NCBI GenBank assembly: GCA_927798505.1 | Contig: CAKMNE010000032.1 | Coordinates: 1-12,049, forward strand | From: an uncultured Bacteroidales bacterium | Lineage (GTDB): Bacteria; Bacteroidota; Bacteroidia; Bacteroidales; UBA932 | Length of the DNA stretch: 12,049 bases | Direction of reading: 5' to 3' | Shown here: positions 3,848 to 12,049 of the stretch, piece by piece | Position numbering within the stretch: position 1 is the first letter of the stretch | Layout: each line of letters starts with the position of its first letter | Notes under the pieces: generated by a model | Seen by the model: the letters and a program-made list of their open reading frames with translations, nothing else | The model's database searches: none | Told to the model about the DNA's origin: nothing | Program-made: the position numbers and the translations under genes

Positions 3848-5041
3848 ATGAACAAATTATTGAATGAACTGTGTGGTAAGTACACGGTTCCGCAGGAGGC
3901 GAAAGCCGCAGGAATCTACCCTTACTACAAAGCGATTTCATCCGGACAGGACCCTGTAGTCACAATGGCGGACGGCCATAAGGCCCTGATGTTCGGATCG
4001 AATTCGTACCTTGGTCTTTCTGATGACCCAAGGCTCAAAGAAGCTGCAAAAGCCGCAATTGAAAAGTACGGAACCAGCTGCTCCGGCAGCCGCTTCCTCA
4101 ACGGTACCCTCGACATCCATAATCAACTTGAAGAAAGGCTTGCCAAATTCGTGGGAATGGAGGAGGCTGTGACCTTCAGCACCGGTTTCCAGGTAAATCT
4201 CGGAGTGGTCAGCGCCCTGGGATTCCGCGGAGGCTACACCCTGCTGGATGACACAGACCACGCCTGCATTATCGACGGAAGCCGTCTGGGCTGGAGCACG
4301 GTCTATAAATTCAAGCACAACGACATGGACGCGCTCGAGAAAAAGCTCAAGGCCTGCGAGCCTGAGGCTCCGAAGCTCATTGTCGTTGACGGTGTCTATT
4401 CAATGCTTGGAGATCTCGTACCGCTCCCAAGGCTCACCGAGCTGGCAGAGCAGTACAACGCATCTGTGATGATTGACGATGCCCACGGTCTGGGCGTGTT
4501 CGGAAAGAACGGCTCCGGTGTGGCCAACCATTTCGGTCTGACCGACAAGGTGGATCTGATTATGGGTACCTTCTCGAAGAGTTTCGGCTCCCTGGGAGGA
4601 TTCATAGCCGGAAGCCACGACGTAATCAACTTCCTCAAGCACAACTCCCGCTCACTGATTTTCAGCGCCTCCATGACTCCTGCCTCAGTTGCAGCTGCCG
4701 CCAAGGCTCTCGACATTATGGAAAGCGAGCCTGAGCGCCTGGAGCACCTGTGGGACATTACCCGCTACGCCTGGAAGCGCTTCCGCGAGAACGGGTTCGA
4801 CATCAACGCAACCGAATCCCCTATTATCCCGCTGATGGTGCGCGACACCAACAAGGCCCTTCAGATCGTTACTCTCGCCTACGAGCAGGGCGTCTTCATC
4901 ACCCCTGTCATCGCCCCGGCCGTTCCGGAAAAGGACGTGCTCATCCGCTTTGCGCTGATGGCCACACACCAGAAGGAGCATATCGACGAGGCAGTGGAGA
5001 AGCTGACCGTCATCTTCAGGGAACTGGGAGTAATCGAATAA
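3848..5041 (+). CDS. spt: Serine palmitoyltransferase (alpha-oxoamine synthase)
   Basis: This 397-aa PLP enzyme of the alpha-oxoamine synthase family would condense L-serine with a fatty acyl-CoA to 3-ketosphinganine, the committed step of sphingolipid synthesis. Visible features: GSNSYLGLSDDPRL (50-63), YGTSCSGSRFLNGT (74-87), His138 in DDTDHACIIDG as the PLP-stacking residue, DGVYSMLGD (181-189), DDAHGLGVFG (210-219), and the Schiff-base Lys244 in GTFSKSFGSLGG. Soluble bacterial homodimers of about 400 aa are typical; Bacteroides thetaiotaomicron BT_0870 is the well-known relative. Close paralogues are KBL (2-amino-3-ketobutyrate CoA ligase) and BioF. The SPT call rests on overall resemblance to the Bacteroidetes Spt N-terminus (MNKLLNEL..KYTVPQEAKAAGIYPYYKAI) and on the adjacent reductase. 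The ATG at 3848 follows a consensus promoter box. Confidence 0.9.
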   Translation: MNKLLNELCGKYTVPQEAKAAGIYPYYKAISSGQDPVVTMADGHKALMFGSNSYLGLSDDPRLKEAAKAAIEKYGTSCSGSRFLNGTLDIHNQLEERLAKFVGMEEAVTFSTGFQVNLGVVSALGFRGGYTLLDDTDHACIIDGSRLGWSTVYKFKHNDMDALEKKLKACEPEAPKLIVVDGVYSMLGDLVPLPRLTELAEQYNASVMIDDAHGLGVFGKNGSGVANHFGLTDKVDLIMGTFSKSFGSLGGFIAGSHDVINFLKHNSRSLIFSASMTPASVAAAAKALDIMESEPERLEHLWDITRYAWKRFRENGFDINATESPIIPLMVRDTNKALQIVTLAYEQGVFITPVIAPAVPEKDVLIRFALMATHQKEHIDEAVEKLTVIFRELGVIE

Positions 5042-5045
5042 GACT

Positions 5046-5840
5046 ATGGTCATACTCATCACTGGAATCACGTCCGGCTTTGGCAAGGCCTGCGCCGAGC
5101 GGCTGAGCGCGGAAGGGCATACCGTCTATGGAACCCACCGCAAGGCCAAGGAGCAAATCCCGGGAGTGCACTACATCAAGGCGGAGTCCACCGTCCAGGA
5201 GGACGTGCAGGCTGCCGTAAAGCAGGTAATGGATGAGCAGGACCGCATCGATGTCTTCATCAACAACGCCGGAATGGGAATAGGCGGTCCGCTGGAATTC
5301 TGCAGCATCGAGGACTGCCAGAGGCAGATGGACGTGAATTTCATGGGCATGGTTCGCTACATCCGCGAGGTTGTGCCGATTATGCGCGCTCAGGGACACG
5401 GACACATCATCTGCTTCAGCTCCATCGGCGGTCTGGTGGGACTTCCATTCCAGGGCATGTACAGCGCATCCAAGTTTGCCATCGAGGGCTATTGCGAGGC
5501 GCTGCGCCTCGAGATCCGCGGTTTCGGCATCAATGTGACCACCATAGAGCCGGGCGACTTTGCCACATCGTTCACCGCCCAGCGCAAGAGCGTGGACAAC
5601 CCCGAGGTGCACAAGGTCTATCCGGGCTATGCCAAATCGCTCGAGAGCATAGAGCACGATGAGACCACCGGTCTGAAGCCGGAATTCCTTGCCAAGAAGA
5701 TTTCCCGCATCATCAGGAAAAAGCGTCCGGGATATCATTACATCATCGCGAACCCTCTCCAGAAGCTTGCGGTAGTGGCGCGCACACTGCTCCCGCCGCG
5801 GGTATTCGCGTGGGTTATGTCTGTATATTATAAGGTATAG
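5046..5840 (+). CDS. Short-chain dehydrogenase, probable 3-ketosphinganine reductase
   Basis: This 264-aa classical SDR has the cofactor motif TGITSGFG (6-13), NNAG (73-76), Asn98, catalytic Ser125/126, Tyr139 and Lys143 in YSASK (139-143), and a PG turn at 169-170. HRK (31-33) after the second strand favours NADPH. It starts 4 bp after the spt stop, so the two are almost surely co-transcribed. That context, plus the known 3-ketosphinganine reductase of B. thetaiotaomicron (BT_0972, also an SDR), makes NADPH reduction of 3-ketosphinganine to sphinganine the best assignment. SDRs are hard to assign by sequence alone. The basic, hydrophobic C-terminus (about 236-264, ending MSVYYKV) could associate with the membrane, where the substrate lies. 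The stop is 1 bp from the stop of the convergent response regulator gene, leaving no room for an intergenic terminator. Confidence 0.82.
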   Translation: MVILITGITSGFGKACAERLSAEGHTVYGTHRKAKEQIPGVHYIKAESTVQEDVQAAVKQVMDEQDRIDVFINNAGMGIGGPLEFCSIEDCQRQMDVNFMGMVRYIREVVPIMRAQGHGHIICFSSIGGLVGLPFQGMYSASKFAIEGYCEALRLEIRGFGINVTTIEPGDFATSFTAQRKSVDNPEVHKVYPGYAKSLESIEHDETTGLKPEFLAKKISRIIRKKRPGYHYIIANPLQKLAVVARTLLPPRVFAWVMSVYYKV

Positions 5841-5841
5841 C

Positions 5842-6588
5842 CTATCCCAACCAGGAGATAAATCCTTCAGCCCTGGCCCTGGAAACTGCAAGTTCAACGG
5901 GAGCCGAAGGCTGCGAAATCACTACAAGGCGTCCCGTAGCATTGCGCGAGACGCTTTTTATTGCGCCGAAGGCTATGATGCATCCGCGCGATATGCGGAA
6001 GAACTTCTGCGGATCCAGCTCATTCTCAAGAGAATCTATGGTTGACTCGATCATATACTTCTCCCCACTGTAGGTCATAAGATAGTTGGCCTTGTCTTCT
6101 GAGAAGAAGAAGGCAATGTCGCCGCTTTGAACAGGGATAATGCGGTCCCCGCAACGCACAATGGATTTCTCTTTGTATGGCTTGGTGTTCTGCCCGAGTG
6201 CGGCGAGCAGCTTCTCAATGCTGGCGGAAGGGTTCCTGCGCTCCCGAGCCCTGCCTACTGCCCTTAGCAGGGCATCCGTTTCTATCGGTTTGAGCAGATA
6301 ATCGATGGAGCCCGCCTCGAAAGCCTTCACGGCATAGGAATCGTAGGCCGTGGTCATAATCACGGGAGCCTTGACCTGCACCCGGCGGAAGATTTCGAAG
6401 CAGATTCCGTCCGAGAGTTCCACATCCATAAATATCAAATCCAGTTCCGGATTTGCAGAGAGAAACTCCACAGCCCCGTGAACGCTGTCAATCATCGCGA
6501 CAATTTCCATTTCAGGAAATGCCTTGTTGAGCAGTCTTGCAAGATTGGCCTGAGCCATCTTTTCGTCTTCGATAATCAGCGCTTTCAT
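5842..6588 (-). CDS. LytTR-family response regulator
   Basis: This 248-aa two-domain regulator has an N-terminal receiver (1-115) with acidic pocket E7/D8, phospho-acceptor Asp55 in LIFMDVELSDG, Thr80 and Lys100 in LLKP. A C-terminal LytTR DNA-binding domain spans about 143-245, including the typical segment FFRISRGCIIAFGAIKSV (196-213). LytTR domains bind pairs of direct repeats about two helical turns apart. The gene overlaps its kinase by 4 bp (ATGA, 6585-6588), indicating translational coupling. Size and architecture match E. coli YpdB and BtsR. The likely binding site is at 7756-7786, upstream of both the kinase gene and the divergent transporter genes. Which genes it controls is inferred from that site. 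Confidence 0.95.
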   Translation of the reverse strand: MKALIIEDEKMAQANLARLLNKAFPEMEIVAMIDSVHGAVEFLSANPELDLIFMDVELSDGICFEIFRRVQVKAPVIMTTAYDSYAVKAFEAGSIDYLLKPIETDALLRAVGRARERRNPSASIEKLLAALGQNTKPYKEKSIVRCGDRIIPVQSGDIAFFFSEDKANYLMTYSGEKYMIESTIDSLENELDPQKFFRISRGCIIAFGAIKSVSRNATGRLVVISQPSAPVELAVSRARAEGFISWLG

Positions 6589-7718
6589 AAGAGTGGCAAT
6601 TTGGCTATGAATTCGGTTTCAGTTTTGCGTGCCTCAATTTCCTTGCCGGAGAGGTCCATGTACTGCTGCTTGATGTACGCAAGGCCCAACCCGGTGGAAG
6701 AGTGGCGCCCGACCTTAGGGCAGAGGTTGTTGGTCACGCATATATCGTCTCCTTCAATAAAAATATTGATTTTCAGAGGGTTATCTGGTCGCACAGCATT
6801 GTGCTTGGTGGCATTCTCTATCAGCAGCTGCAGGCAGCACGGCACCACATGGCGTTGCATTGCCTGAGGAGGGATGTCGCTTTCTATTTGCAGGCCCTCG
6901 GTGAAACGCACCTTCAGCAGGCTGACATATTTCTCCACGAAGTCCATCTCCTCGTAGAGCGGCACCAGTTTCTCCTCCTCGTTGCGAATCATATACCTGT
7001 ACACCTCTGCAAGCTTGTGGGTGTAGAGGCTGGCGCGCTCGGGGCTCTGCTCCTGGATCATGCAATCCAGGATGTTGAGGGAGTTGAAGAGGAAATGCGG
7101 GTTCACCTGCTGTTTGAGCTTCATGTAGCGATACTGCGCGAGATGGGCCCGCTCCAGCTCCTCGTCCCTCTGGCGCAGGGCACGTATGGTGAACACCACC
7201 ACCACAGCCAGCGCAACGCCGCTGAACGTGTAGTTGAGCAGCATGTTGATGGAGTCCGTGCGGACTTGCTCGTCCGAGAGAGGCATTATGAGGATGAGGC
7301 GCACCGTGATGACTATGATGAAGGCAAGCATCAGCCAGATCAGCGCATCCTCCGAGCCTTCGTCACGGCGCCTGCGGCGGTAGATCGTGGCAAAGCCGGA
7401 TATGGCATAGCCTATGATTATGGTGGTCAGAAAGGTAGACGCGGGATAGATGACCAGCGGATTGGAGGAGAAGCAGCCGAAGAGCTCCGAAAAGAGAAAG
7501 CCCAGGGCAAATCCGAAAATATTGATAAGCAGGATGGCAATGGCCATGAACATCGTGCTCATCCTTCCGCGCATGCAGATGAGCATGGTCAGCAGCATGG
7601 TGAGTATGGTGAGCAGCACATCGTCCTGCAAGCCGAAGTACCGGCAGACAAACGCAGTTGCGGCGTGTGCAAGCGCAAATGCGATAATCACAGATGTGTC
7701 TTTCAGGCCAGAATTCAT
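6585..7718 (-). CDS. LytS-type membrane sensor histidine kinase
   Basis: This 377-aa kinase belongs to the His_kinase/HATPase group that pairs with LytTR regulators. About six hydrophobic segments are seen (approximately 9-29, 35-49, 56-79, 91-113, 124-145, 157-181). A short coiled linker (182-200) follows, then the phospho-acceptor box QQVNPHFLFNSLN with His208, the N-box LLIENATKHN (298-307) and the G-box STGLGLAYI (341-349). It lacks the GAF domain of E. coli YpdA, and the membrane part is not recognisably the 5TM-Lyt domain, so the stimulus is unknown. It may sense a membrane or periplasmic ligand, or work with a transporter. The gene is divergent from the MFS gene and is translationally coupled to the regulator. 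The start at 7718 is the first ATG; a promoter box lies only 4 bp upstream, so a leaderless message or a slightly later start is possible. Confidence 0.93.
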   Translation of the reverse strand: MNSGLKDTSVIIAFALAHAATAFVCRYFGLQDDVLLTILTMLLTMLICMRGRMSTMFMAIAILLINIFGFALGFLFSELFGCFSSNPLVIYPASTFLTTIIIGYAISGFATIYRRRRRDEGSEDALIWLMLAFIIVITVRLILIMPLSDEQVRTDSINMLLNYTFSGVALAVVVVFTIRALRQRDEELERAHLAQYRYMKLKQQVNPHFLFNSLNILDCMIQEQSPERASLYTHKLAEVYRYMIRNEEEKLVPLYEEMDFVEKYVSLLKVRFTEGLQIESDIPPQAMQRHVVPCCLQLLIENATKHNAVRPDNPLKINIFIEGDDICVTNNLCPKVGRHSSTGLGLAYIKQQYMDLSGKEIEARKTETEFIAKLPLL

Positions 7719-7722
7719 AGCA

Positions 7723-7730
7723 CAAATTTA
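7723..7730 (-). promoter_or_regulatory. Candidate promoter box of the kinase-regulator operon
   Basis: TAAATTTG on the minus strand matches TAnnTTTG exactly. No TTTG is present 19-21 bp upstream. Instead the direct-repeat site 7756-7786 lies just beyond that position, which would suit an activator-dependent, autoregulated promoter. The predicted transcription start falls at or next to the kinase ATG. Confidence 0.4.
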
Positions 7731-7755
7731 ATAAAAATTTTCATCCCTAAATCTT

Positions 7756-7786
7756 CGCATTTCATCCTTTGATTCCCGCATTTCGT
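7756..7786 (+). promoter_or_regulatory. YpdB-like LytTR response-regulator binding site
   Basis: Two direct decamers, CGCATTTCAT (7756-7765) and CGCATTTCGT (7777-7786), differ at one base and are separated by exactly 11 bp, so their starts are 21 bp apart (two helical turns). The known E. coli YpdB site is GGCATTTCAT-N11-GGCATTTCAT; the copies here match it at 9/10 and 8/10 positions with identical spacing and read toward the MFS gene, as in yhjX. The site sits in the gap between a LytTR system and an MFS gene. Binding is inferred, but position, spacing and sequence agree. Confidence 0.75.
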
Positions 7787-7791
7787 CAGCA

Positions 7792-7809: not shown

Positions 7810-7846
7810 AAAGAAGTGCCTAACTTGGAACCCGATTAACACTAAA

Positions 7847-9178
7847 ATGTCCAATAAAACACTTTCATTTCGTCAGATATTCAATCTGAACTTCGGATTT
7901 TTCGGCGTACAGATAGCGTATGCCCTGCAGTCCGCGAACATTTCCCGCATCTTTGCTACTCTCGGTGCGGATCCGCACCAGTTGAGCTTTTTCTGGATAC
8001 TCCCTCCTCTGATGGGTATGATTGTCCAGCCTCTTATCGGCAAGTGGTCTGACAAGACCTGGTGCCGTCTGGGAAGGCGCAAGCCATATCTTCTGGTGGG
8101 AGCCATAATTGCCGTGCTGGTGATGCTGCTGCTTCCTAATGCGGGCAGCCTCAACCTCAGCAAGGCTTATGCCTTCCTCGGACTCAACAGCGCGATGTGG
8201 TTTGGCCTGTTCAGCCTCATCTTCCTCGACACTTCCATCAATGTGGCTATGCAGCCTTTCAAGATGATGGTGGGCGACATGGTCAGCGAGGAGCAGAAGG
8301 CCCAGGCGTACAGCACCCAGAGCTTCCTGTGCAATGCAGGCAGTCTCTTCGGTTACCTCTTCCCTATTTTCTTCACTTGGATCGGCATTTCCAACACCGC
8401 ACCTGAAGGCGTGGTGCCTGATTCCGTTATCTGGAGCTTCTACTGCGGTGCCGCTATCCTTATCCTCTGCGTTCTCTACACTTGCCTCAATGTCAAGGAG
8501 ATGAACCCGAAGGAGTATGCGGAGTTCCACGGCATAGAGGAAAAAGCTGATAAGAAGGAAGACAATCCGGGATTCATCAAGCTTCTAGTGAAGGCCCCGA
8601 AGACATTCTGGACAGTCAGCCTCGTGCAGTTCTTCTGCTGGGCAGCCTTCCTTTTCCTCTGGACCTACACCAACGGCGCGATTGCCGATACCTGCTGGGG
8701 CACCTCGGACGTGAAGTCCGCCGACTACCAGGCCGCGGGCAACTGGGTGGGCGTGCTCTTTGCCGTCGAGGCCATTGGAGCTATGCTCTGGGCTATCGCC
8801 ATCCCTAAGTTCAAGACTCTCAGGGGAGCCTATGTGACTAGCCTCATCCTCGGTGCGGCAGGGTTTGCATCGGTGTTCTTCATCCATAACCAGTACGTGC
8901 TCTTCCTCAGCTTTATGCTGATTGGCGTTTGCTGGGGTGCAGTGCTTTCCATTCCTTTCACCTTTGTGACCAACGCGCTGAGCGGGAACCATATCGGAAC
9001 CTACCTCGGCCTGTTCAACTGCGCCATCTGCCTTCCGCAGATTGTCGCTGCTGCCACTGGTGGCGCAATACTCAAGATCGTCGGCGGCTCACAGGCTGCT
9101 ATGTTCCTCGTTGCTGCCGTACTGCTGCTTTGCGGTGCGCTTGCCGTAGGACTGATTGAAGAAAGAAAGAATAACTAA
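7847..9178 (+). CDS. MFS transporter, sugar (SLC45/GPH-like) type
   Basis: This 443-aa inner-membrane carrier has about 12 hydrophobic segments in two halves joined by a charged cytoplasmic loop (about 217-245, EMNPKEYAEFHGIEEKADKK). The loop after helix 2 has the MFS motif GKWSDKTWCRLGRRKPYLLVG (65-85), in the version seen in sugar:cation symporters of the SLC45/GPH type. NHIGTYLGLFNCAICLPQI (381-399) near the end also fits that group. Bacteroidetes members are often annotated as maltose or sugar transporters and occur beside SusC/SusD genes; the substrate here is unknown. The start at 7847 gives MSNKTLSFRQIF, the usual N-terminus; an earlier in-frame ATG (7769) would place coding sequence across the regulator site. 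TAACTTGG (7821-7828), one base off the promoter box, may drive it. The SusC gene follows after 14 bp, so both are probably one operon under the divergent kinase/regulator pair. Confidence 0.9.
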   Translation: MSNKTLSFRQIFNLNFGFFGVQIAYALQSANISRIFATLGADPHQLSFFWILPPLMGMIVQPLIGKWSDKTWCRLGRRKPYLLVGAIIAVLVMLLLPNAGSLNLSKAYAFLGLNSAMWFGLFSLIFLDTSINVAMQPFKMMVGDMVSEEQKAQAYSTQSFLCNAGSLFGYLFPIFFTWIGISNTAPEGVVPDSVIWSFYCGAAILILCVLYTCLNVKEMNPKEYAEFHGIEEKADKKEDNPGFIKLLVKAPKTFWTVSLVQFFCWAAFLFLWTYTNGAIADTCWGTSDVKSADYQAAGNWVGVLFAVEAIGAMLWAIAIPKFKTLRGAYVTSLILGAAGFASVFFIHNQYVLFLSFMLIGVCWGAVLSIPFTFVTNALSGNHIGTYLGLFNCAICLPQIVAAATGGAILKIVGGSQAAMFLVAAVLLLCGALAVGLIEERKNN

Positions 9179-9192
9179 TTCCACTAATATTA

Positions 9193-12049
9193 ATGAAACG
9201 CATAATGACCATTCTTGCGGCAGCTGCAGCATCTGCAGTATTCTCCGCAAACGTAGCCGCTCAGAGCTACGAGGTAAAAGGCGTAATCGAGGATTCGCTC
9301 GGTCCGGTGATTGGTGCAACGGTGCTCGAACAGGGCACCTCCAACGGTACCATCACCGATATCGACGGAGCCTATACGCTCAAAGTATCATCTGCGGACG
9401 CAACCGTGGAAATTTCCTGCATCGGCTATACCACCCAGTCTTTCAAGGCTTCTGCCGTTCCGGCAAAAGTAATGCTGAGTGAGGATTCCGTTCTTCTTGA
9501 GGACGTAGTCGTTATCGGTTACGGTTCACAGAAGAAGAAGGAAGTGACCAGCTCTGTAGCTTCCGTAAAGGCTGAAGACTTCAATGCCGGTGTCAAGACC
9601 AACCCTATGGGTCTCCTTCAGGGTAAGGTTGCCGGTCTTAATATCAGCCGCCAGACCTCAGACCCTACTTCTACCGGCTTCAGCGTGCAGATCCGCGGTT
9701 TCTCCACTCTCGACAAGGGTGCCGGAACCAGCCCGCTCTACATTGTTGACGGTGTGCCTGTAAGCAACATCGACAACATTGCTCCGGATGAAATCGCCTC
9801 TATGGACGTGCTCAAGGACGGTTCTGCAGCCGCTATCTACGGTACCCGCGGTACCAACGGTGTGATTATCATCACCACCAAGCGCGGCGAGAACTTCAAC
9901 GATGTTCCTGTGACCCACGTAGAGTATGCCGGCTACGCTTCCGCTTCCTTCCGCAACGGAGACCTCGGAATGGCTACCCCAGAGGAGTTCATCAACCTCA
10001 GCGAGCTCAGCGGCGGAGTCATCACCCCTACCATACTCAAGGACGAAGACGGCAACCCTTACCAGACCGACTGGATGTCAGAGGTAACAAGGTCCGCAGC
10101 CATCACCCAGAGCCACAATGTTGCCATTACCGGCGCTTCCAGCAAGTTCAACTACCGTGCTTCCGTAAGCTACAAGGACGCTGAGGGTATCGCCCGCAAC
10201 AACGAGAGAAACGAGGTTATCGCCAAGATCGCCGCTTCCCAGAAGGCTCTTGACGGTTGGCTCAATCTCGCCTACGACTTCTCTTATATGAAATACCGCA
10301 ACGACTACTTCTGCGGAGACTTCAAGATGGCAGCCATCCTCAACCCTACTACTCCTATCTACGATCCTGCCAACGAGAACGGATACTACAAGCCTCAGGG
10401 AACAGGTCTTTCCAACCCTGTGGAGAACATGAACCAGAAGGAGTCTTACCAGACCGGCAACTACTTCCGCGGTTCTGTGAAAGCCACCCTCAATGTAAAG
10501 CCAGTGGCAGGCCTCAAGTTGAATGCCTTCGCCGCCTTCGAAGAGGGAGACAACAACAATTACTGGGCTAACAAGACCATCAACACTGACCTTGACGGCT
10601 CAGGAAAGGCAGGAAGAGGAAACGACAACAGCATGAACAAGCTGTTCGAAATCACCGCTGACTACAGCCGCTCATTCGGCAAGCACAATGTGGCTGCCGT
10701 TGCCGGTTTCTCATACCAGAACTTCTTCTACGATGGAGAAAGCATAGAGAACAAGGGCTTCCCTACAGAGAGCATGAAGTACTATCAGATCGGTAACGGT
10801 GATGCTGAGAAGACCTACCTCAAGGCATCCTCTTACCGCAATTCCAACACTCTGATTGCGCTCTTCGGCCGTGTAAACTACAACTACGCAGACAAGTATC
10901 TCGTTTCCGCATCCCTGCGCCGTGAGGGTTCTTCCCGCTTCGGCAAGAACAACAAATGGGGTCTCTTCCCTGCAGTCAGCCTCGGTTGGCGTGTTGCAGG
11001 CGAGGAGTTCATGGAGGAAGTAAGTTCAGTGAATGACCTCAAGCTCCGTCTCGGCTTCGGTGTAACCGGAAACAACCTCGGTTCAGACCTCAAGTCAGTC
11101 GCCCTTCTTTCCAACGGAGGTACCTTCTGGTACAACGGTGCTTATGTGAACACCTACACCGTCAGCCAGAATGTGAACCCTGATCTGAAGTGGGAGAAGA
11201 AATACGAATACAACCTCGGTGTGGATTTCGCCCTGCTTGACAACAGGCTTTCAGGTAGCTTCGATACTTACTACCGTCACACCAAGGACCTTCTCTGGGA
11301 CTACGAGGTTCCTACTCCTCCTTACCAGTATCCTACCCTGCTCGCAAACGCAGGTGTGATGGACAGCTACGGTGTCGAGCTCTCAATCAGCGCTATTCCT
11401 GTGAAGACCGATGACTTCACCTGGACCACGACTCCAACCCTGTCCTACAACCACAATGTCATCACCAGGCTTTCAGACCCTGAGAAGGGCTTCAACTACA
11501 AGCAGACGACCTCCGGTGGAGTGGGTGAGAACGGTATAATGAACACCAACACCCAGATTCTCATCGAGGGTCAGTCAGTAGGAACCTTCTACGGCTACAA
11601 GCTCCTCACCATCAAGGACGGCGTCTGGTACTACCAGACCCCTGCAGGCGGTGTTATCGACAGCGCAGGTGCTGCTGAAGGCTACCGCCAGCCACTGGGC
11701 AACGCTCAGCCTTGGTTCACCTTCGGTTGGGACAACTCCTTCAGGTACAAGAACCTCGATGCTACCGTATTCTTCCGCGGAGTGGTCGGAAACAAGATTC
11801 TCAACCTCACCCGCTGGGCTTACGGTCCTAGAGCTTCCGCTGCAGACAACATCTTCATGAAGGATGTGTCCAAGACCAATACCGTACTCAGCAACAAGGA
11901 GCAGTTCTCTGACTACTACCTCGAGGACGGTTCTTACGTGAAACTTGACAACATTACTGTCGGTTATACCTTCAAGCTCAAGGAGAAGAGCCTGATTGAC
12001 CATCTCCGCGTCTATGTCACCGGTCAGAACCTCGCAACCCTCACTGCTT
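9193..12049 (+). CDS. SusC/RagA-family TonB-linked outer-membrane receptor, partial (3' end outside window)
   Basis: An uninterrupted frame of 952 codons runs from ATG 9193 past the right edge. The protein has a signal peptide (MKRIMTILAAAAASAVFSA, likely cut after VAA or VAAQ) and a carboxypeptidase-regulatory-like domain (about 27-97, with GATVLEQGTSNGTITDIDG). A TonB-box region DVVVIGYG (104-111) is followed by a plug (about 115-232) containing VDGVPV (185-190) and LKDGSAAAIYGTRGTNG (207-223). A long beta-barrel rich in aromatic strands follows. The last visible residues, VYVTGQNLATLTA, match the stretch normally some 50-70 residues from the C-terminus, so little is missing. With a SusD lipoprotein, expected just outside the window, such receptors import oligosaccharides or other nutrients across the outer membrane using TonB-ExbBD energy. 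The substrate is not deducible; pairing with a sugar-type MFS carrier suggests a small oligosaccharide. No frameshift is seen. Confidence 0.96.
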   Translation, partial: MKRIMTILAAAAASAVFSANVAAQSYEVKGVIEDSLGPVIGATVLEQGTSNGTITDIDGAYTLKVSSADATVEISCIGYTTQSFKASAVPAKVMLSEDSVLLEDVVVIGYGSQKKKEVTSSVASVKAEDFNAGVKTNPMGLLQGKVAGLNISRQTSDPTSTGFSVQIRGFSTLDKGAGTSPLYIVDGVPVSNIDNIAPDEIASMDVLKDGSAAAIYGTRGTNGVIIITTKRGENFNDVPVTHVEYAGYASASFRNGDLGMATPEEFINLSELSGGVITPTILKDEDGNPYQTDWMSEVTRSAAITQSHNVAITGASSKFNYRASVSYKDAEGIARNNERNEVIAKIAASQKALDGWLNLAYDFSYMKYRNDYFCGDFKMAAILNPTTPIYDPANENGYYKPQGTGLSNPVENMNQKESYQTGNYFRGSVKATLNVKPVAGLKLNAFAAFEEGDNNNYWANKTINTDLDGSGKAGRGNDNSMNKLFEITADYSRSFGKHNVAAVAGFSYQNFFYDGESIENKGFPTESMKYYQIGNGDAEKTYLKASSYRNSNTLIALFGRVNYNYADKYLVSASLRREGSSRFGKNNKWGLFPAVSLGWRVAGEEFMEEVSSVNDLKLRLGFGVTGNNLGSDLKSVALLSNGGTFWYNGAYVNTYTVSQNVNPDLKWEKKYEYNLGVDFALLDNRLSGSFDTYYRHTKDLLWDYEVPTPPYQYPTLLANAGVMDSYGVELSISAIPVKTDDFTWTTTPTLSYNHNVITRLSDPEKGFNYKQTTSGGVGENGIMNTNTQILIEGQSVGTFYGYKLLTIKDGVWYYQTPAGGVIDSAGAAEGYRQPLGNAQPWFTFGWDNSFRYKNLDATVFFRGVVGNKILNLTRWAYGPRASAADNIFMKDVSKTNTVLSNKEQFSDYYLEDGSYVKLDNITVGYTFKLKEKSLIDHLRVYVTGQNLATLTA

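Follow-up and report, generated by a model that had tools for sequence, protein, structure and literature searches.

A 12,049-nucleotide stretch of DNA from an uncultured Bacteroidales bacterium (the window) carries two decamers, CGCATTTCAT-N11-CGCATTTCGT, at positions 7756 to 7786 of the forward strand (full sequence CGCATTTCATCCTTTGATTCCCGCATTTCGT). They lie in the gap between a divergent kinase/regulator gene pair on one side and a gene for a transporter of the major facilitator superfamily (MFS) on the other. A first-pass annotation likened them to the operator of the LytTR regulator YpdB of Escherichia coli; the decamers are present exactly as it described, and the gap between the kinase and MFS genes is indeed 128 bp long. 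The locus raises two questions, i.e. whether the resemblance reflects a recognition code shared across phyla, and which genes the repeats serve. The LytS-type histidine kinase (6585..7718, reverse strand) has an N-terminal membrane sensor and matches His_kinase (PF06580) with 83.5 bits against a cut-off of 25.2. Structure prediction (mean pLDDT 84.8, pTM 0.53) gives its sensor five helices and a long sixth that extends toward the kinase part. Beside it is encoded a response regulator (5842..6588, reverse strand), whose receiver (PF00072) and LytTR (PF04397) domains both score over cut-off. Judged by these two domains, the adjoining LytS-type kinase and the repeat spacing, the window appears to hold a LytTR-family two-component system. 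The MFS gene (7847..9178, forward strand; PF07690/PF13347, with TIGR01301 below cut-off) is the predicted target, and sequence comparison relates its product to SUC1 and SLC45A4. Only 14 bp after it begins a gene absent from the first-pass annotation, encoding a SusC/RagA-type TonB-dependent transporter (9193..12049, forward strand; TIGR04056, 707.1 bits, cut-off 368.25) that is truncated by the contig end; the two genes probably form one operon. The forward-strand stretch 3848-5840, which ends beside the regulator gene, holds genes for an AONS-type aminotransferase class I/II and a short-chain dehydrogenase, with 4 bp between them. The relatives L094 and L251 have them in the same place, and we presume that this gene pair may serve lipid synthesis.

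The decamers would be two of three half-sites in a single LytTR operator. Half-site I, AATTTTCATCC (7736..7746, forward strand), is a third repeat (TTCATCC) that had been missed, 21 bp upstream of half-site II, GCATTTCATCC (7757..7767, forward strand), which contains the first decamer and has a half-site at the same place in relatives. Half-site III, GCATTTCGTCA (7778..7788, forward strand), contains the second decamer, and the TTC cores of all three, at 7740, 7761 and 7782, follow a 21-bp period. In L094, the nearest relative, half-site I is degraded to TTTATCC. The excerpted text of PMC4847170 defines a LytTR operator as two repeats of 9-11 nucleotides with 11-13 spacer nucleotides between them, and the repeats of the window agree with this definition. 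A pattern of both decamers, drawn up after the site had been seen, matches once in the window with up to 3 mismatches, against 0.01 matches expected from 200 dinucleotide shuffles. At the same tolerance the window's own assembly (1.26 Mb, 65% complete) has one other match, with 3 mismatches, and a reversed control pattern also matches once there. A TTCGTCCC pair at 21 bp lies between genes at L262 1501-1527 (G000:C13 10318-10344), upstream of a condensation-type gene and with TACTTTTG further down; it is perhaps an operator of another LytTR regulator, with the reversed control pattern equally frequent.

Comparison across relatives ties the repeats to the regulator. The kinase search covered the window's own genome plus 150 others of the genus, 151 in all, and 114 have a match; an MFS gene adjoins the kinase-regulator pair in almost every locus fetched, L021 and L026 being without one. 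The kinase is longer in L030, L032, L166, L167 and L202-L207 (455-512 residues, compared with 377 in the window). L258 4717-9846 (G642) has susC next to a kinase-regulator pair that shares this sensor; no MFS match separates the two, and malQ is nearby. The upstream regions of relatives contain two or three copies of TTC[AG]TC with a 21-bp period, and their common consensus is C[AC]nTTC[AG]TC: 96 half-sites have C at -3 in 79, A or C at -2 in 86, and C after TTC[AG]T in 94. A first count found the 21-bp pair in 24/31 kinase-linked loci, in 4/4 loci with a LytTR match only and in 0/51 MFS loci with neither. A later count used a hand-made list of loci in the MFS tree. Here 40/52 regulator-linked promoters, versus 0/40 unlinked MFS promoters, contain a TTC[AG]T pair spaced by exactly 21 bp; unlinked means that no kinase or regulator match lies within about 1.5 kb upstream (less at contig ends), so that a distant regulator is possible. 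The genomes are related, and counts across loci are therefore not independent. The list leaves out loci fetched twice, linked loci lacking an MFS match, L021, L026, L217 and L258 among them, the seventh one-component locus (L254, which has the 21-bp pair) and 11 unlinked loci (L081, L083-L085, L087-L093) that had been counted in the earlier 0/51. Also left out are L256 (no pair) and L257 (TTC[AG]TC pair at 21 bp), from G264 and G233, where a distant-clade MFS gene is preceded, in the same direction, by genes for a LytTR regulator and a kinase without a sensor match, likewise with malQ and SusC.

The spacing is also recovered by a motif-free scan for similar 11-mers at spacings of 12 to 44, which peaks at 21 bp, and 42-bp spacing is additionally present in 19 of the 40 pair-bearing linked promoters. 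Twelve of the 52 linked promoters have no exact 21-bp pair, and 11 of these have no 22-bp pair either, L249 being the one promoter with a 22-bp pair in its place; in several of those without a pair, L008, L012 and L028 for example, a degraded half-site can be made out by eye at the expected place. It is extremely unlikely that the repeats arose by chance, or that the promoter is shared by ancestry without regulator binding. The sequences are related, hence conservation alone is no proof; however, none of the 40 unlinked promoters has the array, though 38 of their MFS proteins are 59-75% identical to that of the window, and 100 dinucleotide shuffles of the 52 linked promoters yield 21-bp pairs in a mean of 0.24 (maximum 2). 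The layout is, besides, common to two gene families, MFS and malQ. In the MFS tree the unlinked sets L037-L042 with L048, and L049-L056, nest among linked genes, which indicates that array and linked regulator were lost together in those sets. The repeats are thus predicted to be a real, conserved LytTR-type operator of a known kind. The expectation that such an operator, with its 11-bp spacer and facing the MFS gene, would be conserved across orthologous loci is borne out by both counts.

The same comparison bears on the resemblance to YpdB. The E. coli yhjX operator had been quoted correctly as GGCATTTCAT-N11-GGCATTTCAT, and the window pair agrees with it at 17/20 positions with an identical 11-bp spacer. 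Across 56 half-site pairs, between 10 and 17 of the 20 YpdB positions agree, with 12-13 in 35/56, and the window pair is one of three in the top tail. Even in L094, whose MFS protein is 98% and kinase 87% identical to those of the window, the first decamer is CGCAATTCAT. What relatives conserve, then, is half-sites at an 11-bp spacer, and not YpdB identity. The proteins differ as well. Between the window regulator and E. coli YpdB the identity is 26% (28% in another alignment), and the best NCBIfam matches of the window regulator, LytR (92.8 bits, cut-off 375) and BtsR (81.5 bits, cut-off 246), both fall far under. E. coli YpdA has 5TM-5TMR_LYT, GAF, His_kinase and HATPase_c domains, whereas a Pfam search of the window kinase gives only His_kinase over cut-off and one other match under it, and the window MFS protein has no significant similarity to YhjX (BLASTP E = 0.027). 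Membership in the YpdA/YpdB-yhjX system was considered and rejected, as kinase domains, regulator identity and MFS protein are all unlike. The broader proposal of the first-pass annotation, that a YpdB-type recognition code and its MFS-control role persisted across phyla or came in together with the system, can point to the near-match of the pair and to a LytS-type kinase, a LytTR regulator and a presumed MFS target in both systems; set against the relatives' pairs and the protein differences it is highly improbable. From the sequences compared, the close match to the E. coli operator would be mostly coincidence, and the window and YpdB are predicted to share the general half-site type and two-turn spacing of the family, which are known for other LytTR regulators, Bacteroides included, from the excerpts of PMC4847170 and PMC6193735.

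As to the genes served, the distance from the array to the promoter is informative. We took the last TTC of the array (relaxed core TTC[AG][TG], spaced by 21 or 22 bp) as the starting point and a strict -7 box of the Bacteroidota type, TAnnTTTG, as the end point; the loci behind these counts are related and are not independent cases. Among MFS promoters with a relaxed pair, 18/43 have a strict box downstream, at 37-39 bp in 14, 49-50 bp in 2 and 58-59 bp in 2, and the remaining 25/43 have none within 99 bp. For malQ promoters with a relaxed pair the strict box is present in 16/19, at 38 bp in 3 and 48-50 bp in 13. Across 1 to 99 bp no further distances occur, save an MFS offset of 60 bp that comes from reading L016 a second way, its other value being 38 bp; the 18/43 is a recount by locus. 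The distances step by about one helical turn, as they should if the regulator, once bound, has to face the polymerase. The window has a candidate MFS -7 box, TAACTTGG (7821..7828, forward strand), that differs from TAnnTTTG by one mismatch and lies 39 bp after the last TTC.

The regulator is divergent to the MFS gene in 51/52 linked loci, and the position of the array between divergent genes would also suit a role mainly in autoregulation of the kinase and regulator genes, or in repression. A weak candidate kinase -7 box, TAAATTTG (7723..7730, reverse strand), lies 4 bp before the start codon and adjoins half-site I, and the excerpts of PMC11347149 describe CoxC as a LytTR repressor with three repeats. 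Nevertheless, it is the strict box on the MFS side that is phased where present, while a kinase-side box (CAAAnnTA on the forward strand) is found in 17/51 divergent gaps, for 3 of these solely at over 150 bp from the start codon, and malQ has the same array upstream, at a distance from the kinase promoter. We regard autoregulation or repression as very unlikely, and consider it highly probable that the LytTR two-component system activates the MFS-SusC(-SusD) operon through the 21-bp half-site operator. The membrane kinase (6585-7718) would sense a signal linked to starch sugars and phosphorylate the LytTR regulator (5842-6588), which would then occupy the half-sites; with their 21-bp spacing, these would lie on the same side of the helix and immediately before a -33/-7 promoter. 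The bound regulator would recruit RNA polymerase for transcription of the MFS-SusC(-SusD) genes and, in many relatives, of malQ too. Computation shows the array, the fact that it co-occurs with the regulator, the gene content and, for promoters with a strict box, the phased distance; we infer binding, activation in place of repression, a phosphorelay and a malto-oligosaccharide substrate or signal.

The likely substrate is suggested by the genes that share the array. In 22 genomes, a refined array pattern has 15 matches at MFS arrays and 9 elsewhere, with an array before a GH77 gene (malQ) in G140, G139 and G116, lying in the first two 38 bp before TATATTTG or TATCTTTG. A GH77 match is present in 142 of the same 151 genomes. 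Of 40 malQ promoters read, some beside the system and some elsewhere, 19 have the relaxed pair and 21 do not; this count leaves out duplicates (L169, L170, L171, L175, L176, L185, L192), partial loci (L166, L218), those with an uncertain start (L188, L195, L209), one with no upstream sequence (L186) and the GH77 gene of the window's own genome (L199), which has no 21-bp pair upstream. The window contains no malQ neighbour or alpha-glucan enzyme, and its contig ends inside susC; GH77 lies in the same locus in L155, L162 and other relatives, and SusD follows susC in L161 and L162. SusC, SusD and malQ in relatives, together with the SUC1/SLC45-like MFS protein, indicate that the likely role is malto-oligosaccharide uptake. 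Control of starch-sugar uptake in Bacteroidales is usually credited to SusR or hybrid kinases; the SusR-regulated sus system of Bacteroides thetaiotaomicron likewise controls starch-sugar uptake through SusC/SusD, and SusR is another type of regulator than the LytTR protein here. Our results point to a LytTR system for this purpose, and in the literature searched we found no report of a LytTR operator with such a target context.

In seven loci, kinase and regulator are replaced by a single protein that combines the kinase's type of membrane sensor with a LytTR domain; the operator and the MFS gene next to it are the same. In genus g15, the MFS-SusC locus L160 encodes a protein of 250 residues in which Pfam recognises a LytTR domain alone, and L252, L253, L254 and L261 resemble it. 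PF04397 is the only Pfam match of the L160, L249 and L250 proteins, with no kinase or receiver. An hhalign alignment of the g15 family's N-terminal part with the membrane sensor of the kinase spans 134 columns (99.7%, E 1.1e-26; 26% over 90 residues by BLASTP for the L160 type), and the L160 LytTR domain is 46% identical to that of the window regulator. The fusions of the window's genus, L249 (313 residues) and L250 (374 residues), keep more of the kinase sensor and linker. A search with the L160 protein gives 82 matches, 80 of them without a receiver. The repeats before the MFS gene are kept in 7/7 one-component loci, at 21 bp or, in L249, 22 bp; TATCTTTG lies 38 bp after the last TTC in L249 and a one-mismatch box, TAAATTCG, at 38 bp in L250, and no strict -7 box was found in the five g15 loci. 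By their predicted architecture the replacement proteins fit transmembrane one-component regulators, presumably placed in the membrane.

The MFS tree, built from a short search and including six of these loci, puts them in three places forced by well-supported branches, and rejects both a single origin (p = 0.0007) and the grouping of L249 with L250 (p = 0.006). The LytTR-domain tree also has three places, two of them forced, with L249 within a 100/99 clade of two-component regulators; this short tree does not reject one origin (p = 0.225), and L249 and L250 form long branches in it. Taken together, these placements favour repeated conversion from two components to one, and transfer of a fusion gene between loci is possible. 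We lean modestly towards the view that at one orthologous promoter the sensor was joined to the LytTR domain, with loss of kinase catalysis and receiver, more than once, the MFS operon and the operator layout, with its half-sites two turns apart and in phase with the -7 box, being retained. The kinase and regulator genes are adjacent in that order, with a 4-bp overlap in many loci, and therefore each conversion could be a single in-frame deletion. The descent of membrane one-component regulators from two-component systems has already been proposed, as the excerpts of PMC10269533 indicate. The locus offers a natural series of regulator architectures, and because both states have the same operator type and target, the conversion step is directly testable by protein swap. 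The layout of half-site, 21-bp period and about 38, 49 or 59 bp to the -7 box may also guide the search for LytTR regulons in Bacteroidales.

Besides the sus system, three known systems are closest to the one proposed here, as far as the excerpts of their reports describe them. Like the window, YpdA/YpdB (PyrS/PyrR)-yhjX combines a LytS-type kinase and a LytTR regulator with two decamers at an 11-bp spacer upstream of an MFS gene (PMC4847170); unlike it, the window has three half-sites, regulator genes beside the target and a SusC/SusD and malQ context. Among the LytTR regulatory systems (LRS), the LRS-like operon of B. thetaiotaomicron has TCCGGTATTCA-11 bp-ACCGGAAATCA, 11 bp before TGTA-19 bp-TATCTTTG (PMC6193735), and so shares the promoter type and direct repeats with an 11-bp spacer just upstream. 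There, however, the LytTR protein is itself membrane-bound and paired with another membrane protein, the half-site letters differ and the operator belongs to the system's own operon (PMC6193735). CoxC/RcoM resembles the one-component forms in having sensor and LytTR domain in one protein and three direct repeats (PMC11347149). The sensor of CoxC, however, is an MHYT membrane domain, and its targets are cox genes, which it represses (PMC11347149), whereas the one-component forms here carry the sensor of the kinase of neighbouring lineages and have an MFS/SusC operon as their predicted target.
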